The notes below the pieces were generated by a model, which was given only the letters and a program-made list of their open reading frames with translations, was not told the DNA's origin and searched no databases. Source: a virus. From it: a stretch of 23,497 nucleotides of DNA. Below, one piece after another: positions 8,790 to 19,285 of this stretch. Location: positions 1 through 23,497 of IMG/VR virus record IMGVR_UViG_3300029266_000838, one strand, 5' to 3'. Position 1 is the stretch's first letter. The number at the start of each line of letters is the position of its first letter. Position numbers and translations under genes: made by a program.

Positions 8790-8860
8790 GATAGCACCAA
8801 TAACACCCCAATCATTGGGATGTTTTCATAGCATCTCAGCTAATCATCAGTTGGTTTATC
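8790..8860 (-). ncRNA. Type I hammerhead ribozyme C
   Basis: Read on the minus strand. Stem I is ACCAA (8855-8851) with UUGGU (8800-8796), extended past an internal loop by GAUA (8860-8857) with UAUC (8793-8790). The core CUGAUGA is at 8850-8844. Stem II is UUAGC/GCUAU around loop UGAGAU, with a U-U at its base. GAA is at 8827-8825. Stem III is ten pairs, AACAUCCCAA/UUGGGGUGUU with a UGA loop and one U-G. The cleavage triplet is UUA, so the cut falls between 8801 and 8800. All invariant hammerhead residues are present. The stop codon of the 75-aa gene (8858-8856) lies within stem I, and the ribosome binding site of the 59-aa gene follows. Confidence 0.94.
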
Positions 8861-9083
8861 TCAATCCAATTTTTCTTTCCAAGTGCATAGTAATCACTTG
8901 TCTCATATTTTTAATAACATAATCGAATTGTTTAGGGTTAGCTTTTGCTATCGCAAATAGAGAATCCATATCATGAGGAATTACATTCTCAATCATGGAT
9001 TTTTTACTTACATACGATTTAAGTTCTCGCATCAAATCGTCTTCTAAGTCTTCTAATGTGTCTAAGTATTTTGATTTTTTCAT
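8856..9083 (-). CDS. Small helical phage protein (75 aa), ribozyme-flanked
   Basis: A charged, apparently all-helical protein: LDTLEDLEDDLMRELKSYVS, then SLFAIAKANPKQFDYVIKNM and RQVITMHLERKIGLR. GGAGG precedes the ATG and lies in the loop of a short GACC/GGTC hairpin that might limit initiation. The gene is flanked by two hammerhead ribozymes (B upstream, C at its stop codon), so it would be cut out as its own monocistronic RNA. No family is recognised. Confidence 0.65.
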   Translation of the reverse strand: MKKSKYLDTLEDLEDDLMRELKSYVSKKSMIENVIPHDMDSLFAIAKANPKQFDYVIKNMRQVITMHLERKIGLR

Positions 9084-9109
9084 AATTTCGACCCTCCAAG
9101 GTCATATTA

Positions 9110-9180
9110 AATTACCAATAACAGACAGCACTCGCTATCTGTTTTCATGTCATCTCAGACAATCATCAGTTGGTTTAATT
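9110..9180 (-). ncRNA. Type I hammerhead ribozyme B
   Basis: Minus strand. Stem I is ACCAA (9174-9170) with UUGGU (9118-9114), extended by AAUU/AAUU. The core CUGAUGA is at 9169-9163. Stem II is UUGUC/GACAU with loop UGAGAU. GAA is at 9046+100 offset, i.e. 9146-9144. Stem III is ten pairs, AACAGAUAGC/GCUGUCUGUU, with tetraloop GAGU and one U-G pair. The triplet is UUA and the cut falls between 9119 and 9118. Stem II differs from copies A and C at paired positions (UGUC/GACA against UAGC/GCUA), a compensatory change. It follows the VWA gene and precedes the 75-aa gene. Confidence 0.94.
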
Positions 9181-9195
9181 ATTAACAGGTTAATA
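9180..9195. repeat. 16-bp palindrome, copy 5 (perfect)
   Basis: TATTAACAGGTTAATA, identical to copy 4. It lies between the VWA-gene stop codon and hammerhead B. Confidence 0.85.
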
Positions 9196-9200
9196 GTCAA

Positions 9201-9216
9201 TGTTGCCTAAGCAACA
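9201..9216 (-). other. Hairpin with the VWA stop codon in its loop
   Basis: TGTTGC-CTAA-GCAACA: six perfect pairs, with the TAG stop codon (minus strand) in the four-base loop. It may protect the 3' end of the VWA message. Confidence 0.5.
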
Positions 9217-10313
9217 TCAACTATATCTCCAAAGGTGAAGTAACTTGAAGTCTCGGTGGTAGCCCAAACTACAGGATATTCAGGCTCAGTACATGGCGTA
9301 CAATAACCATCAGTAAGATAGATTAAGAATGAGATATCATTGTCTAACTCTTTATCTATATATTTGATTACAGGTTCATAATCAGTGCAACCACCTCTCA
9401 TGTAATGTAATTCAATCTCTTCACCTCTACCAAAGGTATCAACTCTTCTAACAGCATCATCACAATAGATAACTGTAAGCTCTTCGAAGTCAGCCACTTC
9501 TTTAATGTCATTTGCACAACTTATGTACATGGCTTGATCTTCTTTATTTGTAGAACCACTGATATCAATAGCAAGAACGCCTTTAGCACTCGGCTTTTTT
9601 TCACAACTAGGCAAGTAAAGGTCTTGATGTATAAACCTTCTATTTACATTATTGAAGTTGTAATCGCTAGATGGGACTTTGTCCAATACTAAGTTCATTA
9701 GGATTTCCTCCCAAGATACTGAATTGTCTTTTACGACATCCATCATGCCTTTAGTAGCATCTCCCATACCTTTACTTGAGAAACCCTTAGCACTTTGCTC
9801 TGCTTGAAGCACTTGTATTGTTACCTCTATGTCTGCATCTTTTACTTGAGATTCTGTGAGTTTCTCTCCATCATCTCCAACAGCATCAATAACCTCTCCA
9901 ACCAATTGGGCGTTATCGTGTTGCTTATCTTTGAATACTTGATCATAGACAGTTTCAGTTTTTTGATTGACATATTTTCTATCAAACAATCCACCATCAG
10001 GCAAAACAAACTTATGCTCAAATAGTACTGCATTGATAACGTAATCACCGGCAACATTCCAATATTGAGGACATCTATTTTTTCTTCTCAGGTGGTGTTT
10101 GAAAACGATATGTAAAACTTCGTGAGCAATAACACCAACTCTTTCTTGATGGGTAATACTCAATACAAAGTCCTTGTTATAGAACAAGTGAGTACCATCA
10201 ACAGCCATAGTATCAATATCATCTCTTTCAACCATCACCATTCCTAAAGCAATCTTTCCAAAAAAGGGATGTTTGATAATAAGTTCAGTCCTAGCTTTCG
10301 TCATTTCTTGCAT
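9207..10313 (-). CDS. Putative metallopeptidase/VWA-domain protein (DUF2201-like)
   Basis: A 368-residue protein. The N-terminal part has HPFFGKIALGM and, at residues 64-68, HEVLH followed by FKHH, a zinc-metallopeptidase HExxH motif, then YWNVAGDYVINA. The C-terminal part from about 245 has AIDISGS (DxSGS, a metal-adhesion VWA motif at 250-254), IYCDDAV, RGGCTDYEPVI and IYLTDGYC. This two-part layout matches the metallopeptidase plus VWA-like (DUF2201) proteins usually encoded beside MoxR ATPases. The ATG at 10313 follows the upstream stop after two bases; a GTG at 10328 is an alternative. Likely partner of the MoxR ATPase 1 kb upstream. Substrate unknown. Confidence 0.85.
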   Translation of the reverse strand: MQEMTKARTELIIKHPFFGKIALGMVMVERDDIDTMAVDGTHLFYNKDFVLSITHQERVGVIAHEVLHIVFKHHLRRKNRCPQYWNVAGDYVINAVLFEHKFVLPDGGLFDRKYVNQKTETVYDQVFKDKQHDNAQLVGEVIDAVGDDGEKLTESQVKDADIEVTIQVLQAEQSAKGFSSKGMGDATKGMMDVVKDNSVSWEEILMNLVLDKVPSSDYNFNNVNRRFIHQDLYLPSCEKKPSAKGVLAIDISGSTNKEDQAMYISCANDIKEVADFEELTVIYCDDAVRRVDTFGRGEEIELHYMRGGCTDYEPVIKYIDKELDNDISFLIYLTDGYCTPCTEPEYPVVWATTETSSYFTFGDIVDVA

Positions 10314-10315
10314 TA

Positions 10316-11191
10316 TCAATCTAACCACCCTTCAAGACCTTCGATAATCTCATCAGATTTATCAGCTAATTCTTTAGCCTTATCTTTATCATCTCTCAAT
10401 GATTGAGCATCGATGTTTTTGCCAGTGAAAATATCCATCAGACCTTGATGAGCCTTATGAATTTTTGAATCACCACCAATATTTAATGCCGGTATAACTT
10501 CGCAAAGTTCCATAACTTTATCAAGCGTTGAATCTCTAAATGTTTCACCTGCTTTTATTTTTTCTGAAAAGTGTCCAAGTACGCCATTGATTTTATCAGT
10601 AACATCTTTGGTTATCTTTTCAACTCTATCCTCTTCTTGCTTCTTAGCATTTTGTTTAAGTTCGTCAATCTCATCTTTAGATAAATTAATTCTAATATCA
10701 TCAGTTGATGGAACGACATTCTTAATAACTTCGCAAGAAAAATACTCTCCAATTTCAGTCTCATGAGGGAAATCATTTGAATCAAAGTTAGCACCAAATT
10801 CATGCTCGGCACTTTTGATAATCTCCGGATATTCAGAAACAAACTGTTTTACCAATTTCTCTCTATCATCTCTATATTCTGAAAACCTTTTCTCAAACCT
10901 ATCTTTTGCATCGATAGGTAATAAGTAGTTTCCATTGTTATCCCATGCATGACAAAAACCTCTATATCCAGCACCTGAATAAATGCAGTCAGTTCTTATC
11001 TGTCCATCAATTTTTTTAATCTCTTTTAATGTTTTGGACTTAGTAAGTTTCTTAGAAACTGAATACAAACTTGCATCAGTATTAGAATCATTACCTATTT
11101 TTTCTGATAAGGATTTATCAGTTTTAGTCCCACCCCATTTCTTGAGTTCAACCTTGATGAGCATGGCTTTTTCGTTTAAGGCTACTGCCAT
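10316..11191 (-). CDS. DUF3150-like protein of the MoxR/VWA module
   Basis: A 291-residue protein with an N-terminal segment MLIKVELKKWGGTKTDKSLS, a middle region with GFCHAWDNNGNYLLPIDAKD and FVSEYPEIIKSAEHEFGANF followed by DSNDFP, and a highly charged helical C-terminal half (LKQNAKKQEEDRVEKITKDV). The pattern of a W at about 19, an R/H-W-D-G-LLP element and N-DFP resembles the DUF3150-type proteins found between MoxR ATPases and VWA proteins in phages and plasmids. The assignment is by pattern and neighbourhood. Probably an adaptor or substrate-binding part of the complex (inference). ATAGGAG precedes the ATG; hammerhead A lies in its leader. Confidence 0.65.
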   Translation of the reverse strand: MAVALNEKAMLIKVELKKWGGTKTDKSLSEKIGNDSNTDASLYSVSKKLTKSKTLKEIKKIDGQIRTDCIYSGAGYRGFCHAWDNNGNYLLPIDAKDRFEKRFSEYRDDREKLVKQFVSEYPEIIKSAEHEFGANFDSNDFPHETEIGEYFSCEVIKNVVPSTDDIRINLSKDEIDELKQNAKKQEEDRVEKITKDVTDKINGVLGHFSEKIKAGETFRDSTLDKVMELCEVIPALNIGGDSKIHKAHQGLMDIFTGKNIDAQSLRDDKDKAKELADKSDEIIEGLEGWLD

Positions 11192-11209
11192 AAAAATACT
11201 CCTATATTT

Positions 11210-11231
11210 AAGTATTAATTAGTTAATACTT
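11210..11231. repeat. 16-bp palindrome, copy 6, within a 22-bp inverted repeat
   Basis: AAGTATTAA-TTAG-TTAATACTT has perfect 9-base arms, extending the family motif TATTAATTAGTTAATA (one mismatch to consensus). It lies in the leader of the DUF3150-like gene, directly after hammerhead A. Confidence 0.75.
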
Positions 11232-11338
11232 GTTACCAATATGAATCTAACCATTAAGGAAAAACAAAGTTATAAACAACTTTATTTTTTACAGATTCAT
11301 TTCATAGCATTTCAGCTAATCATCAGTTGGTTTAAAGC
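11228..11338 (-). ncRNA. Type I hammerhead ribozyme A with long stem III
   Basis: Minus strand. Stem I is ACCAA (11331-11327) with UUGGU (11239-11235), extended by GCUU/AAGU across an internal loop. The core CUGAUGA is at 11326-11320. Stem II is UUAGC/GCUAU with loop UGAAAU. GAA is at 11303-11301. Stem III is AUGAAUCU/AGAUUCAU (eight pairs), whose end carries a second hairpin of 12 pairs (11289-11278 with 11271-11260). The triplet is AUA and the cut falls between 11240 and 11239. The MoxR stop codon (11334-11332) lies in the stem I internal loop, so cleavage separates MoxR from the DUF3150-VWA pair. Confidence 0.93.
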
Positions 11339-12321
11339 GTAATGTCTTGATGTTTGATATCAAAATCAATAAACGCTTTAGTCTTTTTCAAATCAGGATT
11401 TGATTCAATTGCATCAGTCATACACAAAATCGCAAACTCATCAGGTAATGTGTCTAAGTATTTCATGAACTTATTGATGTTTTTCTTATCCATTTTCCTA
11501 GCGATTATGCTAGTAATTGCATACAAGATAGCTGGGTCAGACTCAGTATCAAGGCTCTCAGGGTCATTTAAGATTTTATCCAATGATGGTAAACCTCTTA
11601 CAGTTCTCATAAACCCTATCAACTCAGCACTAACTCCTTGTCCAATAGTTCCGGAAAGTAGTTCATGCTCAATATCAGCACTAGGCGATTGAGCCATAAT
11701 TCTTGAAGCATACTCCCAAGTTCTAGGCGTGGCGTTAATTCCCATTTTTGCATTTTTATCAAAAACAAATAGATTCTCAGGTCTATATCTCATATAGGCT
11801 ATGACTTCCGGAATAATTTTTCCACTTGATTTTGCCCAGTCTATCCAATCGTCTACGCAAGGCTCAAATTCAAGATTAATAAATCTACCTGCCAATGCTG
11901 TATTCATTCTATTTGCTCCGGCTTTATCTGACATCCTATTTCCAGCACCAATTATCACAGTTGATTCAGGAAGTGTATATTCGCCAAGTTGTCTATCTTT
12001 AACTAACTGAAACAAAGCGTTTTGTACGCTAGGGCTACCATGAGGTAACTCATCCAAGAACAATATTGTTTTTGGGTCTTTTTCAGTTGGTAAAAATACT
12101 GGTGGATTCCACACAGTAACTCCTTCTTTTACGCTAGGTACTCCTCTTAAATCTACAGGGTCTAGCAATGATACTCTCACATCTCTAATCTCAAAACCAA
12201 GAGACTTTCCAACTTTGTGGATAATCTCCGATTTGCCGACCCCAACTCCACCATAAACAAATGATGGCTGGTTAATAGAAATGAGAGTGGAAAGTGATTT
12301 TTCTAATTGTTTCGCTTTCAT
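11332..12321 (-). CDS. MoxR-family AAA+ ATPase
   Basis: A 329-residue protein with all AAA+ elements: Walker A GGVGVGKS (24-31), Walker B ILFLDEL (86-92), sensor 1 GAGNR (125-129) and an arginine-finger GRF (145-147). The sequence between them (RVSLLDPVDLRGVPSV ... WNPPVFLPT) is typical of MoxR/CobS-type ATPases, with a helical lid afterwards (ATPRTWEYASRIM). MoxR ATPases act as chaperone-like remodelers together with VWA proteins, and one lies downstream. GGAG precedes the ATG by five bases. The transcript is bounded by a probable type III hammerhead upstream and hammerhead A at the stop codon, so this message may be isolated from its partners. Confidence 0.9.
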   Translation of the reverse strand: MKAKQLEKSLSTLISINQPSFVYGGVGVGKSEIIHKVGKSLGFEIRDVRVSLLDPVDLRGVPSVKEGVTVWNPPVFLPTEKDPKTILFLDELPHGSPSVQNALFQLVKDRQLGEYTLPESTVIIGAGNRMSDKAGANRMNTALAGRFINLEFEPCVDDWIDWAKSSGKIIPEVIAYMRYRPENLFVFDKNAKMGINATPRTWEYASRIMAQSPSADIEHELLSGTIGQGVSAELIGFMRTVRGLPSLDKILNDPESLDTESDPAILYAITSIIARKMDKKNINKFMKYLDTLPDEFAILCMTDAIESNPDLKKTKAFIDFDIKHQDITL

Positions 12322-12355
12322 ATTTACTCCATTTTTGCGATTAATAAAACTGAAA

Positions 12356-12410
12356 TGACTATTTCGCAGTAACTCATTCAGGCATGGGTACTAATCCCAT
12401 GCGATAGTCA
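12356..12410 (-). ncRNA. Probable type III hammerhead ribozyme E, altered core
   Basis: Minus strand. UGACUAU (12410-12404) pairs perfectly with AUAGUCA (12362-12356) as stem III. C12403 is the residue before the cut, in triplet AUC. Stem I is GCAUGGG/CCCAUGC with loop AUUAGUA. Then come CUGA-AU-GA (12381-12374), a very short stem II (G-C and U-G around UACU), and GAA (12365-12363). Order and junctions match a stem-III-open hammerhead. However, the core has one extra base compared with CUGANGA, and stem II is only two pairs. It could be an unusual active form or a decaying copy. It lies in the leader of the MoxR gene. Confidence 0.62.
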
Positions 12411-12418
12411 AAATTAAA

Positions 12419-12449
12419 TGGCTAGTTTTAAGGTATGTGGTACTAGCCA
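12419..12449 (-). other. 8-bp hairpin upstream of ribozyme E
   Basis: TGGCTAGT (12419-12426) and ACTAGCCA (12442-12449) form eight perfect pairs around a 15-base loop. It lies between the 42-aa gene and ribozyme E and may protect the 3' end of the upstream message. No U-run follows on the minus strand. Confidence 0.6.
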
Positions 12450-12465
12450 ACCACGAAAAATTTAC

Positions 12466-12594
12466 CTATACACCCTTAGCATTTTCAAATGCTATCTGAA
12501 ATGCTGTTTTCTTTTTTACTTTTGGCTTGTAAATTTTCATAGATATTAATTTATCTTGTTGATTCACAACCACTTTTCTTTTTGATTTTTTCAT
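12466..12594 (-). CDS. Small basic protein (42 aa)
   Basis: A short gene with GGAG five bases before ATG 12594. It follows the 69-aa gene after 31 bases that include a copy of the 16-bp palindrome. The protein is strongly basic: MKKSKRKVVVNQQDKLISMK, then IYKPKVKKKTAFQIAFENAK. Such composition suggests nucleic-acid or RNA polymerase binding, but no family is recognised. Its existence is supported by spacing and ribosome binding site rather than similarity. Confidence 0.6.
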   Translation of the reverse strand: MKKSKRKVVVNQQDKLISMKIYKPKVKKKTAFQIAFENAKGV

Positions 12595-12608
12595 ATGCTC
12601 TCCATAAG

Positions 12609-12624
12609 TATTAATCAGTTAATA
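12609..12624. repeat. 16-bp palindrome, copy 7 (one mismatch)
   Basis: TATTAATCAGTTAATA, one base after the stop codon of the 69-aa gene and before the ribosome binding site of the 42-aa gene (minus strand). Confidence 0.8.
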
Positions 12625-12625
12625 T

Positions 12626-12835
12626 TTAGTATGTTTTTGTTGCTCCCATAACTAGGTGTGCAACATCAATTAGTTTTTCAATAGTTGACTCTCTCATATG
12701 CTTTTGATTTTTCTCATTAACTCTATGATAAGCACCCACGATGTAGGATGCTGTAAACAAATCAACTACCACGCCTTCAACTTTCATTGCTGTTTGGGTC
12801 TCTGATATTTCAAATAATTTTCCTAAAGCACTCAT
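12626..12835 (-). CDS. Small phage protein of unknown function (69 aa)
   Basis: The start at ATG 12835 is chosen because it overlaps the stop of the membrane-protein gene (TAATG); a longer frame would run back through that gene. MSALGKLFEISETQTAMKVE, VVVDLFTASYIVGAYHRVNE, then STIEKLIDVAHLVMGATKTY look like a small alpha/beta or all-helical protein. No family is recognised. Confidence 0.6.
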   Translation of the reverse strand: MSALGKLFEISETQTAMKVEGVVVDLFTASYIVGAYHRVNEKNQKHMRESTIEKLIDVAHLVMGATKTY

Positions 12836-12993
12836 TACATCCACCCCATTTTTAAAGCAATATATGAAACAATGCACAATGCCAAAGCAAAGGGCTTTAA
12901 TACATACCAGCTAAACCATTCCATCCCATTCATATTACTGAAGTGCTTTTTGATCGAAACCCATTCTTTTATTAATCTATTCGCCATTGTCAT
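12835..12993 (-). CDS. Small membrane protein, one transmembrane helix (52 aa)
   Basis: A short gene whose ATG (12993, alternative 12987) lies inside the end of the 49-aa gene and whose stop overlaps the next start. The N-terminal half is basic and soluble (MTMANRLIKEWVSIKKHFSN). Residues about 29-50 (WYVLKPFALALCIVSYIALK) are a clear transmembrane helix. A single helix with a basic cytoplasmic-like N-terminus could be a holin-like, superinfection-exclusion or anchor protein; nothing in the sequence decides. It sits among small middle genes, not beside lysis genes. Confidence 0.7.
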   Translation of the reverse strand: MTMANRLIKEWVSIKKHFSNMNGMEWFSWYVLKPFALALCIVSYIALKMGWM

Positions 12994-13126
12994 AACCCCC
13001 TAAATGTTGCATAGGGTCTATGTTAGAAATATCACTTTCTATTGAGTTGATATACTCTCCATCGCCTATACATCTATTACCTAAAACATTGTCTAATTCT
13101 GCAACTAATCTATTTAGTTCATTCAT
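12977..13126 (-). CDS. Small phage protein of unknown function (49 aa)
   Basis: GGAG is six bases before ATG 13126. The protein is acidic: MNELNRLVAELDNVLGNRCI, GDGEYINSIESDISNIDPMQ, then HLGGYDNGE. It overlaps the membrane-protein gene by 17 bases. It is the first gene after hammerhead D, so cleavage would give its message a leader of 33 bases. Function unknown. Confidence 0.6.
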   Translation of the reverse strand: MNELNRLVAELDNVLGNRCIGDGEYINSIESDISNIDPMQHLGGYDNGE

Positions 13127-13154
13127 AATTTCTCCATTTTTAATTATATTTATT

Positions 13155-13219
13155 ACCTATATATGGAACTCCGGAGAGTCCCAAATTTCGCCACCTTTCA
13201 GTGTTGCTCGTCAGTAGGT
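13155..13219 (-). ncRNA. Type I hammerhead ribozyme D
   Basis: Minus strand. Stem I is ACCUA (13219-13215) with UAGGU (13159-13155). The core CUGACGA is at 13214-13208. Stem II is GC, an AA bulge, then CACU/GGUG closed by a GAAA tetraloop, ending GC. GAA is at 13189-13187. Stem III is 11 positions (13186-13176 with 13171-13161), ten paired, with loop UCCG. The triplet is AUA and the cut falls between 13160 and 13159. It differs from A-C in every stem yet keeps all invariant residues. It directly follows the stop codon of the 100-aa gene and precedes the 49-aa gene. Confidence 0.92.
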
Positions 13220-16849: not shown

Positions 16850-19285
16850 ATGGCAGAGAAACCATTACAGACACCGGAAAAATTTGTTGAAGATTCACCA
16901 TTAGAAATATTAATTACTAATCCTGATGAAGTATCTGTTATGTCTGAAGAAGGCGGAATGATTATAGATTTTGACGAAGGCTCTGAAAACGAAACAGAAA
17001 ACTTTGACGATAATATCGCAGATTTTATGGATAAAAACGAACTTGAGTCATTGTCAAATGAACTAGTAGGTTATTATAATTCAGACAGAGAATCTCGTAG
17101 TGACTGGGAACAAACTTATACAAAAGGATTAGACCAGTTAGGTTTAAAACAAGAAGAACGAACAGTTCCTTGGAATGGTGCTTGTGGTGTATTCCATCCC
17201 TTACTAACTGAATCAGTTGTAAGATTTCAAGCAGAAGCTATTACAGAACTATTTCCAGCTAAAGGACCAGTAGATACCAAAATAATTGGTGAACTAACTA
17301 CAGAAAAACAAGAACAATCAGAAAGAGTTAAAGATTATCTTAATTATCTATTAACTGAAAAAATGAGTGAATACAGAACTGAAACCGAAAAGATGTTATT
17401 TAATTTGCCATTGGCAGGTTCTGCTTTTCGTAAAGTATATTATGACCCAACATTAAATAGACCAGCTAGTATGTTTGTACCGGCAGAAGATTTTGTTGTA
17501 AGTTATGGTGCATCTGACCTTACTACTTGCGACAGAGCAACTCATGTAATGAAGAAAAGCACTAATGATATTAGAAAGCTACAGGTAGTTGGTTTTTATA
17601 GAGATATTGAATTACAAACACCATCAGCTAATCATTCAAATATACAAAGTAAATATGACGAATTAACAGGTGATAGCTCATCATATGACTATGACCAAAG
17701 ACATACTGTTTTAGAAATGCATGTTGACCTTGACTTAGAAGGTTTTGAAGACATGAAAGACGAAGAAGCAACAGGTATAGCATTACCTTATGTTGTCACA
17801 CTAGATTATCAATCAGGTACTATTCTTTCTATTCGTAGAAATTTTTTAGAAGAAGACCTACAGAAAAAACGAAGAGATCACTTCGTTCATTATCAATACC
17901 TACCCGGAATGGGATTTTATGGTTTTGGTCTAATACATCTTATAGGCGGAATAGCTAAATCAGCTACAAGTTTATTAAGACAGTTGGTTGATGCAGGAAC
18001 TCTCAGTAACTTACCGGGTGGTTTAAAATCCAGAGGATTAAGAATCAAAGGCGATGATACCCCTATCATGCCGGGTGAGTTTAGAGATGTAGATGTGCCC
18101 GGTGGTGCCATCAAAGATAACATAGCCTTCCTTCCTTACAAGGAACCTTCGTCTACTTTGTATTCTCTTTTACAAAACTTAGTAGATGAGGGAAGAAGGT
18201 TTGCTTCATTAGCAGATATGAAAGTGTCTGATATGAATAGTCAGGCTCCTGTTGGCACCACATTGGCACTTTTAGAAAGGTCTTTAAAAGTTATGGGTTC
18301 AGTACAAGCTAGAATACATAACTCTTTAAAACAAGAATTAAAAATATTATCAAGAATAATATTCGATCATGGACCAACAGAATATCCTTATGATATTAAA
18401 GGTAAAGAACTTGTATCAGAAGACTTTGATAGTAAAGTAGATATAGTTCCTGTGTCTGACCCTAATGCTGCTACAAAAGCTCAAAGAATAATGCAGTATC
18501 AAGCAGCACTTCAGTTATCACAACAAGCACCTCAAATGTATAACATGCAAGAGCTACACAGACAGATGCTTGATGTACTAGGTATTAGAGATGCTGATAA
18601 AATAGTTCCATTAGAAACTGAAATAGAACCAACAGACCCTGTTTCAGAAAATATGAATATGATGAATGGCAAACCTACTAAAGCATTTATGTATCAAGAC
18701 CATGAAGCTCATATCAAAGTACATATGGCTGCTATGCAAGACCCTAAAATTAGAGAACTAGTTGGTCAAAGTCCAAATGCTTCATCTATTATGGCTGCAT
18801 TTTCAGAGCATGTAACAGAACATATAGCATTTCAATATAGAAAAGAAATTGAAAAACAAATGGGTGTACCTCTTCCACCTCCTAATGAACCATTACCGGA
18901 AGATGTTGAATTACAATTATCACAACTTGTGTCTGAAGCTGCTGAAAGAGTACTAGCAGATAGTCAAGCTGAGAAACGACAAAAAGAAGTTCAAGAAAAA
19001 CTTGAAGACCCTGTTGTACAGCAACGAGAAAAAGAATTACAAATTAGAGAACAACAAGTTCAAAGCAAAATGCAAAGCGATTCTATGAAAATTTCAGCAG
19101 ACCTTGAGAAGTCAAAAGCTAATCAAGAAATAGAAAAAGAAAGAATTTCATCACAAGAAAGAATAGCTGGTGCACAGATTGGATTTAAGGCTGCAAGTGA
19201 AAATGCAAAATTAAGTAGCAAAGAACAGTTAGAAGGTGTTAAGATTGGTAAAGAGATAGTAGAAACATTGTTTGAAAATAAATAA
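16850..19285 (+). CDS. Portal protein
   Basis: An 811-residue protein directly after TerL, as portals usually are. Recognisable segments are LVGYYNSDRESRSDWEQTYT, VPWNGACGVFHPLLTESVVR, QAEAITELFPAKGPV, LLFNLPLAGSAF-type helix-turn regions, and FVHYQYLPGMGFYGFGLIHL with GTLSNLPGGLKSRGLRIKGD. These match the large portal family of marine tailed phages. The last 110 residues are Q/E/K-rich (QREKELQIREQQVQSKMQSD) and probably form a coiled-coil or helical barrel extension, as in long portals such as that of P22. Twelve copies would form the vertex ring through which TerL pumps DNA. Confidence 0.88.
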   Translation: MAEKPLQTPEKFVEDSPLEILITNPDEVSVMSEEGGMIIDFDEGSENETENFDDNIADFMDKNELESLSNELVGYYNSDRESRSDWEQTYTKGLDQLGLKQEERTVPWNGACGVFHPLLTESVVRFQAEAITELFPAKGPVDTKIIGELTTEKQEQSERVKDYLNYLLTEKMSEYRTETEKMLFNLPLAGSAFRKVYYDPTLNRPASMFVPAEDFVVSYGASDLTTCDRATHVMKKSTNDIRKLQVVGFYRDIELQTPSANHSNIQSKYDELTGDSSSYDYDQRHTVLEMHVDLDLEGFEDMKDEEATGIALPYVVTLDYQSGTILSIRRNFLEEDLQKKRRDHFVHYQYLPGMGFYGFGLIHLIGGIAKSATSLLRQLVDAGTLSNLPGGLKSRGLRIKGDDTPIMPGEFRDVDVPGGAIKDNIAFLPYKEPSSTLYSLLQNLVDEGRRFASLADMKVSDMNSQAPVGTTLALLERSLKVMGSVQARIHNSLKQELKILSRIIFDHGPTEYPYDIKGKELVSEDFDSKVDIVPVSDPNAATKAQRIMQYQAALQLSQQAPQMYNMQELHRQMLDVLGIRDADKIVPLETEIEPTDPVSENMNMMNGKPTKAFMYQDHEAHIKVHMAAMQDPKIRELVGQSPNASSIMAAFSEHVTEHIAFQYRKEIEKQMGVPLPPPNEPLPEDVELQLSQLVSEAAERVLADSQAEKRQKEVQEKLEDPVVQQREKELQIREQQVQSKMQSDSMKISADLEKSKANQEIEKERISSQERIAGAQIGFKAASENAKLSSKEQLEGVKIGKEIVETLFENK

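Follow-up and report, generated by a model that had tools for sequence, protein, structure and literature searches.

The window analysed here, the complete 23,497-base IMG/VR record IMGVR_UViG_3300029266_000838, is a tailed-phage fragment that encodes a terminase, a portal protein, a capsid protein, a primase-helicase and a Sak recombinase. Its source is an uncultured phage, probably of marine origin. Its minus strand carries an operon containing genes for a MoxR-type AAA ATPase, a DUF3150-like protein and a VWA-like protein, and five elements with the structure of hammerhead ribozymes, designated A to E, lie where genes of this 4.5-kb operon adjoin (Table 1). A first-pass annotation, made from the nucleotide sequence alone, had described four type I hammerheads (A to D) and one probable type III hammerhead (E) at these places, each downstream of a stop codon and ahead of the ribosome-binding site that follows. 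All five were recovered at the same places and on the same strand by models built independently of the window, their placement relative to stop codons and ribosome-binding sites is as described, and the five cleavage positions that had been predicted (13159, 12402, 11239, 9118 and 8800) proved exact to the base.

Table 1. Hammerhead elements, accompanying motifs and genes of the operon, with predicted cleavage sites (aa, amino acids; ^, cut)
Feature	Position	Strand	Predicted cut	Cut-site triplet	Remarks
Hammerhead D, type I	13155..13219	-	13160/13159	AUA^U	core CUGACGA; model R3, 63.3 bits, E-value 3e-17; unconstrained fold
Hairpin UGGCUAGU/ACUAGCCA upstream of E	12419..12449	-			arms 12449-12442 and 12426-12419
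Hammerhead E, type III	12356..12410	-	12403/12402	AUC^G	variant core CUGAAUGA; model R1, 64.9 bits, E-value 1.6e-18; covariation
MoxR-type AAA ATPase gene	11332..12321	-			between cuts E and A; PHROG 1297, E-value 1.7e-86; Pfam AAA_5
Hammerhead A, type I	11235..11331	-	11240/11239	AUA	U-U at 10.1/11.1; model R2, 46.5 bits, E-value 1e-10
Palindrome TATTAAC-NNN-TTAATA	11213..11228	-			between hammerhead A and the DUF3150 gene
DUF3150-like protein gene	10316..11191	-			Pfam PF11348, E-value 6e-05, below the Pfam cut-off
DUF2201 metallopeptidase-like and VWA-like protein gene	9207..10328	-			PF13203, E-value 5e-34; PF09967, E-value 8e-13; PHROG 1314
Palindrome TATTAAC-NNN-TTAATA	9180..9195	-			just upstream of hammerhead B
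Hammerhead B, type I	9114..9174	-	9119/9118	UUA	U-U mismatch; model R2, 64.3 bits, E-value 2e-15
75-aa gene	8856..9083	-			hammerheads B and C on either side
Hammerhead C, type I	8796..8855	-	8801/8800	UUA	U-U mismatch; model R2, 72.3 bits, E-value 1e-17

Unconstrained folding gave the three-helix hammerhead shape for all five minus-strand elements. A strict descriptor scan found A, B and C, with 0.025 matches per shuffled window; a looser scan added D, E and one spurious match at 18938. Weak matches at 8407-8367 and 18938-19022 were rejected, as both lie within reading frames and have no proper core. Patterns derived from the cores were then searched in 2.9 million viral contigs, from which 36, 21 and 24 stretches were retrieved. 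Three covariance models (R1, R2 and R3) were built from other phages, leaving out the lineage of the window and its 85% relative. These models scored the five elements at 47 to 72 bits, and the best other match remained below 20 bits. Hammerhead A scored 63.1 bits in an identical copy on a longer related contig. In the type III set, which was aligned on core and loop letters with the stems left free, both sides change in 14 of 20 pairs, and the covariation score was 0.74 compared to 0.22 for shuffled alignments and no more than 0.13 when partners were slid. The type I sets likewise covary around fixed cores; this covariation is slightly favoured by construction, because the register of stem III was picked by best pairing and its distal part removed.

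The check proposed in the first-pass annotation, a search with the Rfam models RF00163 (Hammerhead_1) and RF00008 (Hammerhead_3), was negative. At permissive thresholds one scan returned nothing and another only D, wrongly aligned as type III with 18 bits against a cut-off of 48.5. The elements of the window have the three helices and the core of these families but fall under their gathering thresholds, which serve detection and do not define a hammerhead biologically. However, Rfam also found little in the relatives, and even relatives with covarying stems were below threshold or missed. Thus, the Rfam models are narrow and insensitive here, and their failure does not refute the hammerheads.

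Elements A to D show the type I arrangement of the three helices, in which stem I is the open one, and the conserved core (C3 U4 G5 A6 N7 G8 A9, G12 A13 A14, A15.1-U16.1 and H17) can be read directly in each. D starts directly after the TAA of a 100-aa gene; its stem I is ACCUA/UAGGU, its stem II GC-AA-CACU/GGUG-GC with a two-base bulge and a GAAA closing loop, and it has a G-C pair at 10.1-11.1. Common to A, B and C are a stem I of ACCAA/UUGGU, a UGARAU loop and, instead of a standard pair, a U-U at 10.1/11.1. A starts directly after the MoxR stop codon and carries a long insert within its stem III, B has UGUC/GACA as stem II in place of UAGC/GCUA, and C starts directly after the stop of the 75-aa gene, with a hairpin (GCUAUC/GAUAGU) immediately 3' of its stem I. 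The U-U marks a variant and does not exclude hammerhead membership, since a natural U-U variant is known to be active (Perreault et al. 2011; PMC3088659).

Element E has the helix order of type III, the NUH triplet AUC before stem I, and GAAA. Its core is interrupted by an extra A (CUGAAUGA versus CUGANGA) and its stem II comprises just 1-2 bp. The variant core was invariant in 16 aligned sequences, but the search pattern had required it. E is therefore classed as an A6a variant and not as a canonical hammerhead. A kissing contact between loops I and II is predicted, in which the pairs 19-43, 20-42 and 21-41 are always standard; pair 19-43 of this predicted contact changes from G-C to A-U in the lineage of the window. 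Just upstream of E, the lineages folded all have a hairpin, the sequences of which are unrelated. Folding z-scores of this hairpin are strong in most lineages (-2.0 to -5.4) and weak in the window (-1.2), where pairing of GUGGU/ACCAC (12454-12450 to 12441-12437) could add a pseudoknot. The idea of a separate ribozyme or pseudoknot at this place was rejected, as relatives hold an unrelated plain hairpin there.

The hammerheads are strongly associated with one gene set. In IMG/VR, 35 of the 39 matches to the U-U (A/B/C) pattern lie at most 600 nucleotides (nt) from a MoxR, DUF3150 or VWA gene on the same strand; for the E and D patterns the corresponding counts are 14/24 and 7/24. MoxR is encoded on 13 of 19 long hammerhead-bearing records, in all 13 with a hammerhead at most 190 nt away (at most 100 nt in 11). 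At 80% identity the MoxR proteins of the 48 loci found with at least one of the three patterns form 20 clusters, and at 60% identity they form 8, while any match to the MoxR of the window was found in 810 of 50,697 phage records. Selecting loci in reverse, by MoxR instead of by ribozyme, gave 80 loci, and E was present upstream of MoxR in all 15 loci with at least 57% identity over the compared region. Several related loci contain three to five hammerheads each, and relatives overall hold two to five at this operon. The earlier description of the arrangement as unusual is thus only partly borne out, as phage hammerhead clusters had been reported in 2011 (PMC3088659).

Hammerheads were also seen in other settings. 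Locus L101 (G011:56500-60613), from a phage record with no MoxR match, has four type I hammerheads on the same strand in a 1.5-kb stretch of small genes. Members of the D and E classes occur at L055/L104, L070/L102 and L065/L103, records that have no full-length match to the MoxR of the window. Near another MoxR gene, GC-rich type II and type I candidates (L135:483-534 and 1620-1680) differ from the three classes described here.

To the association with the gene set is added a characteristic anatomy of the boundaries. Where an upstream gene was recognisable, 25 of 36 type I hammerheads start directly at its stop codon (16/22 of the U-U class, 9/14 of the D class), compared to none of 16 type III elements, which lie 25-101 nt away. 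In the window this register is seen in A, C and D, and it is absent from B (32 nt) and E. A hairpin of 6-9 bp begins within 3 nt of the type I U-U cleavage site in 23 of 26 cases, where 6.8 would be expected; A and C of the window have it, B does not. The boundary between MoxR and DUF3150 shows that the hammerhead can be exchanged. In the window and in L127 it consists of hammerhead A followed by a TATTAAC motif, and in L108, L109, L111, L113 and L114-L117 a plain GC hairpin precedes the same motif.

On this basis we consider it probable that the hammerheads serve as boundary elements, which would cut read-through RNA and thereby form the ends of messages; their structure is observed, and cutting would follow from it. 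The five ribozymes would cut the RNA of the minus-strand operon at gene boundaries. After a type I cut, the upstream message would keep the stem III hairpin, with a terminal 2',3'-cyclic phosphate, at its 3' end, and the downstream message would receive a 5'-OH leader. Cutting by the type III element E would give the MoxR message a 5'-OH beside a 7-bp hairpin, and the message before it could be closed by the separate hairpin upstream of E. Separate RNAs would result for MoxR, for DUF3150-VWA and for the small genes. In bacteria, RNA decays more slowly when it has 5'-OH ends or hairpins at its termini. The ends of the separate RNAs may hence resist end-dependent decay, and their levels could differ. 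It is the boundary anatomy, together with this general knowledge of RNA ends, that leads us to the message-end reading. The ribozymes would then be interchangeable boundary cassettes of phage MoxR-DUF3150-VWA operons, each slot being filled by a hammerhead or a plain hairpin. That plain hairpins take the place of hammerhead A hints most strongly that the formation or protection of ends, rather than cleavage itself, is selected. A more elaborate version is tentative: a dedicated boundary system of the MoxR-DUF3150-VWA operon, in which stop-locked type I elements couple cutting to termination, a type III A6a element precedes MoxR, messages are gene-length and protected, and cassettes of ~90 nt pass from one phage to another, distant one and alternate with plain hairpins.

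The first-pass annotation had further proposed that one long transcript is cut into separate messages, each of which would have its own stability and stoichiometry. Cutting is the most likely effect of the elements, as predicted from their structure; the single long transcript is doubtful, because the palindrome TATTAAC-NNN-TTAATA, probably a phage promoter or operator, precedes several genes of the operon. The window contains eight sites (706, 2031, 5544, 7790, 9180, 11213, 12609 and 14145) and 17 strand-matches with at most one mismatch, compared to 0.22 expected. Several of them closely precede minus-strand genes, and relatives carry the motif at the same junctions. Some cistrons may have their own transcription start besides being cut. 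A search for a single-subunit RNA polymerase that could explain the palindrome gave no match, but the positive control was equally unmatched.

This doubt weighs against the message-end reading, and several other observations do so as well. At the MoxR-DUF3150 boundary of L118, L121, L122 and L124 there is neither hammerhead nor hairpin, and the genes almost touch. No hammerhead was detected in the MoxR-selected loci of 49-55% identity (L118, L121-L124), and where checked they have no gap. The device is therefore stable within its clade and dispensable beyond it. Other lineages depart from the arrangement, with type I elements before MoxR in G005 and G006 and type III elements after MoxR in G006 and G019. 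Hairpins after stem I show no clear excess in the D class (10 observed, 6.4 expected). Many of the compared phages are kin, so that the counts represent non-independent events. As to the activity of the elements, cleavage by A to E in the cell is itself a prediction from their structure, A, B and C may be slower because of their U-U mismatch, and the single hammerhead with the core insertion of E that had been assayed earlier showed low activity (PMC3088659).

The stop-codon register would also be expected if cutting were regulated by translation. A ribosome terminating at the abutting stop codon would block stem I and the CUGA core, so that cutting would report translation of the upstream gene. 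The contrast between type I and type III elements in their position at the stop codon, and the register of A, C and D but not of B and E, point in this direction; compact gene packing and the conserved AA before stem I could, however, produce the same register. We regard such regulation as rather unlikely, and it could hold together with the formation of message ends.

Some of the elements appear to have moved between phages. Over 91 nt, hammerhead C together with the hairpin 3' of it (8858-8769) shares 95.6% identity with an element located before MoxR in L020, L035 and L040, which belong to a MoxR cluster different from that of the window. In the close relative L007, hammerhead B, the 75-aa gene and hammerhead C are absent from the corresponding place. 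Judged from these sequences, hammerhead elements also travel between phages, and this keeps alive the explanation that they are passengers, short sequences spread by phage recombination that cleave themselves with little effect and are tolerated between genes. The lack of detected hammerheads in relatives with 49-55% identical MoxR would fit such a history. Covarying stems and invariant cores across many lineages nevertheless require selection for folding, and the strong tie to one gene set, the stop-codon register and the finding that a hairpin, not an empty junction, replaces the ribozyme fit a role at boundaries. We therefore consider passengers an unlikely explanation.

Two further explanations are highly improbable. 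2',3'-cyclic phosphate and 5'-OH ends are substrates of RtcB-type ligases, and the cuts might thus prepare RNA for joining into circular or spliced messages, such as a MoxR circle, given that MoxR lies between E and A, and the 75-aa gene between B and C; a search of nine related phage records, in which the positive controls were detected, gave no match to RtcB or to an RNA ligase, and other phage hammerheads gave no ligated product (PMC3088659). That the elements are degenerate, inactive relics, as the core insertion of E, the U-U of A to C and the low Rfam scores might suggest, is at odds with the conservation of both variants in many phages with covarying stems, with the intact core of D and with the activity known for U-U mismatches (PMC3088659).

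Among the neighbouring genes, the one at 9207-10328 belongs to PHROG 1314, which is labelled HNH endonuclease; this label looks wrong, as Pfam gives DUF2201 metallopeptidase-like and VWA-like domains. A ribosome-binding site lies within a hairpin loop at 9099 on the minus strand, and 36 further such sites were found in loci L009-L058. In these hairpins, complementary arms of 4-7 bases surround TTGGAG before the start codon (37 distinct cases, 0.67 in shuffles), and the arms vary from gene to gene, as if covarying. Neither the operon nor the single ribozymes revealed any relatives when searched as nucleotide sequences against the 50,697 phage records, and the A/B/C pattern had no match in 84,980 prokaryote genomes and hence indicated no host. 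By its terminase, the window is nearest the Pelagibacter phages HTVC027P and HTVC023P and two other aquatic phages (52-56% identity). Cultured pelagiphages of the HTVC023P/HTVC027P type, whose terminases are 52-55% identical to that of the window, have genomes of 57-61 kb; no hammerhead was found in the 22-25 kb stretches examined, and no MoxR is annotated.

Clusters of hammerheads in phages have precedents. Perreault et al. described several same-strand hammerheads flanking single genes or short gene blocks in prophages, proposed that they cut long phage RNA into gene-length messages, and reported in vitro cleavage for three tandem arrangements (PMC3088659). The window, where phage genes are likewise flanked by a same-strand series of hammerheads, belongs to this kind. 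The U10.1-U11.1 mismatch, the A6a insertion and the pseudoknot between loops I and II were already described in 2011 (PMC3088659). In contrast to that work, the U-U subclass is here tied to MoxR-DUF3150-VWA, and the A6a form, of which one weakly active example was given (PMC3088659), is a covarying subclass. The stop-codon register of type I and the exchange with plain hairpins are absent from its abstract and searched passages (PMC3088659). A 2017 review noted the link to phages and treated the role of prokaryotic hammerheads as an open question (PMC6155905). No openly accessible paper was found that pairs hammerhead ribozyme, phage and MoxR; a 2015 study on hammerhead-linked genes was outside this scope. 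Within it, the gene-set association, the stop-codon register, the hairpin exchange and the covarying A6a subclass appear new.

These results define covarying hammerhead subclasses that Rfam has overlooked. They also tie phage hammerheads to one gene set, one side of the stop codon and a slot in which a hairpin can take their place, giving them a testable role in the formation of message ends. As a recurring, exchangeable boundary part of the MoxR/VWA gene set, they make the question of phage hammerhead function testable.

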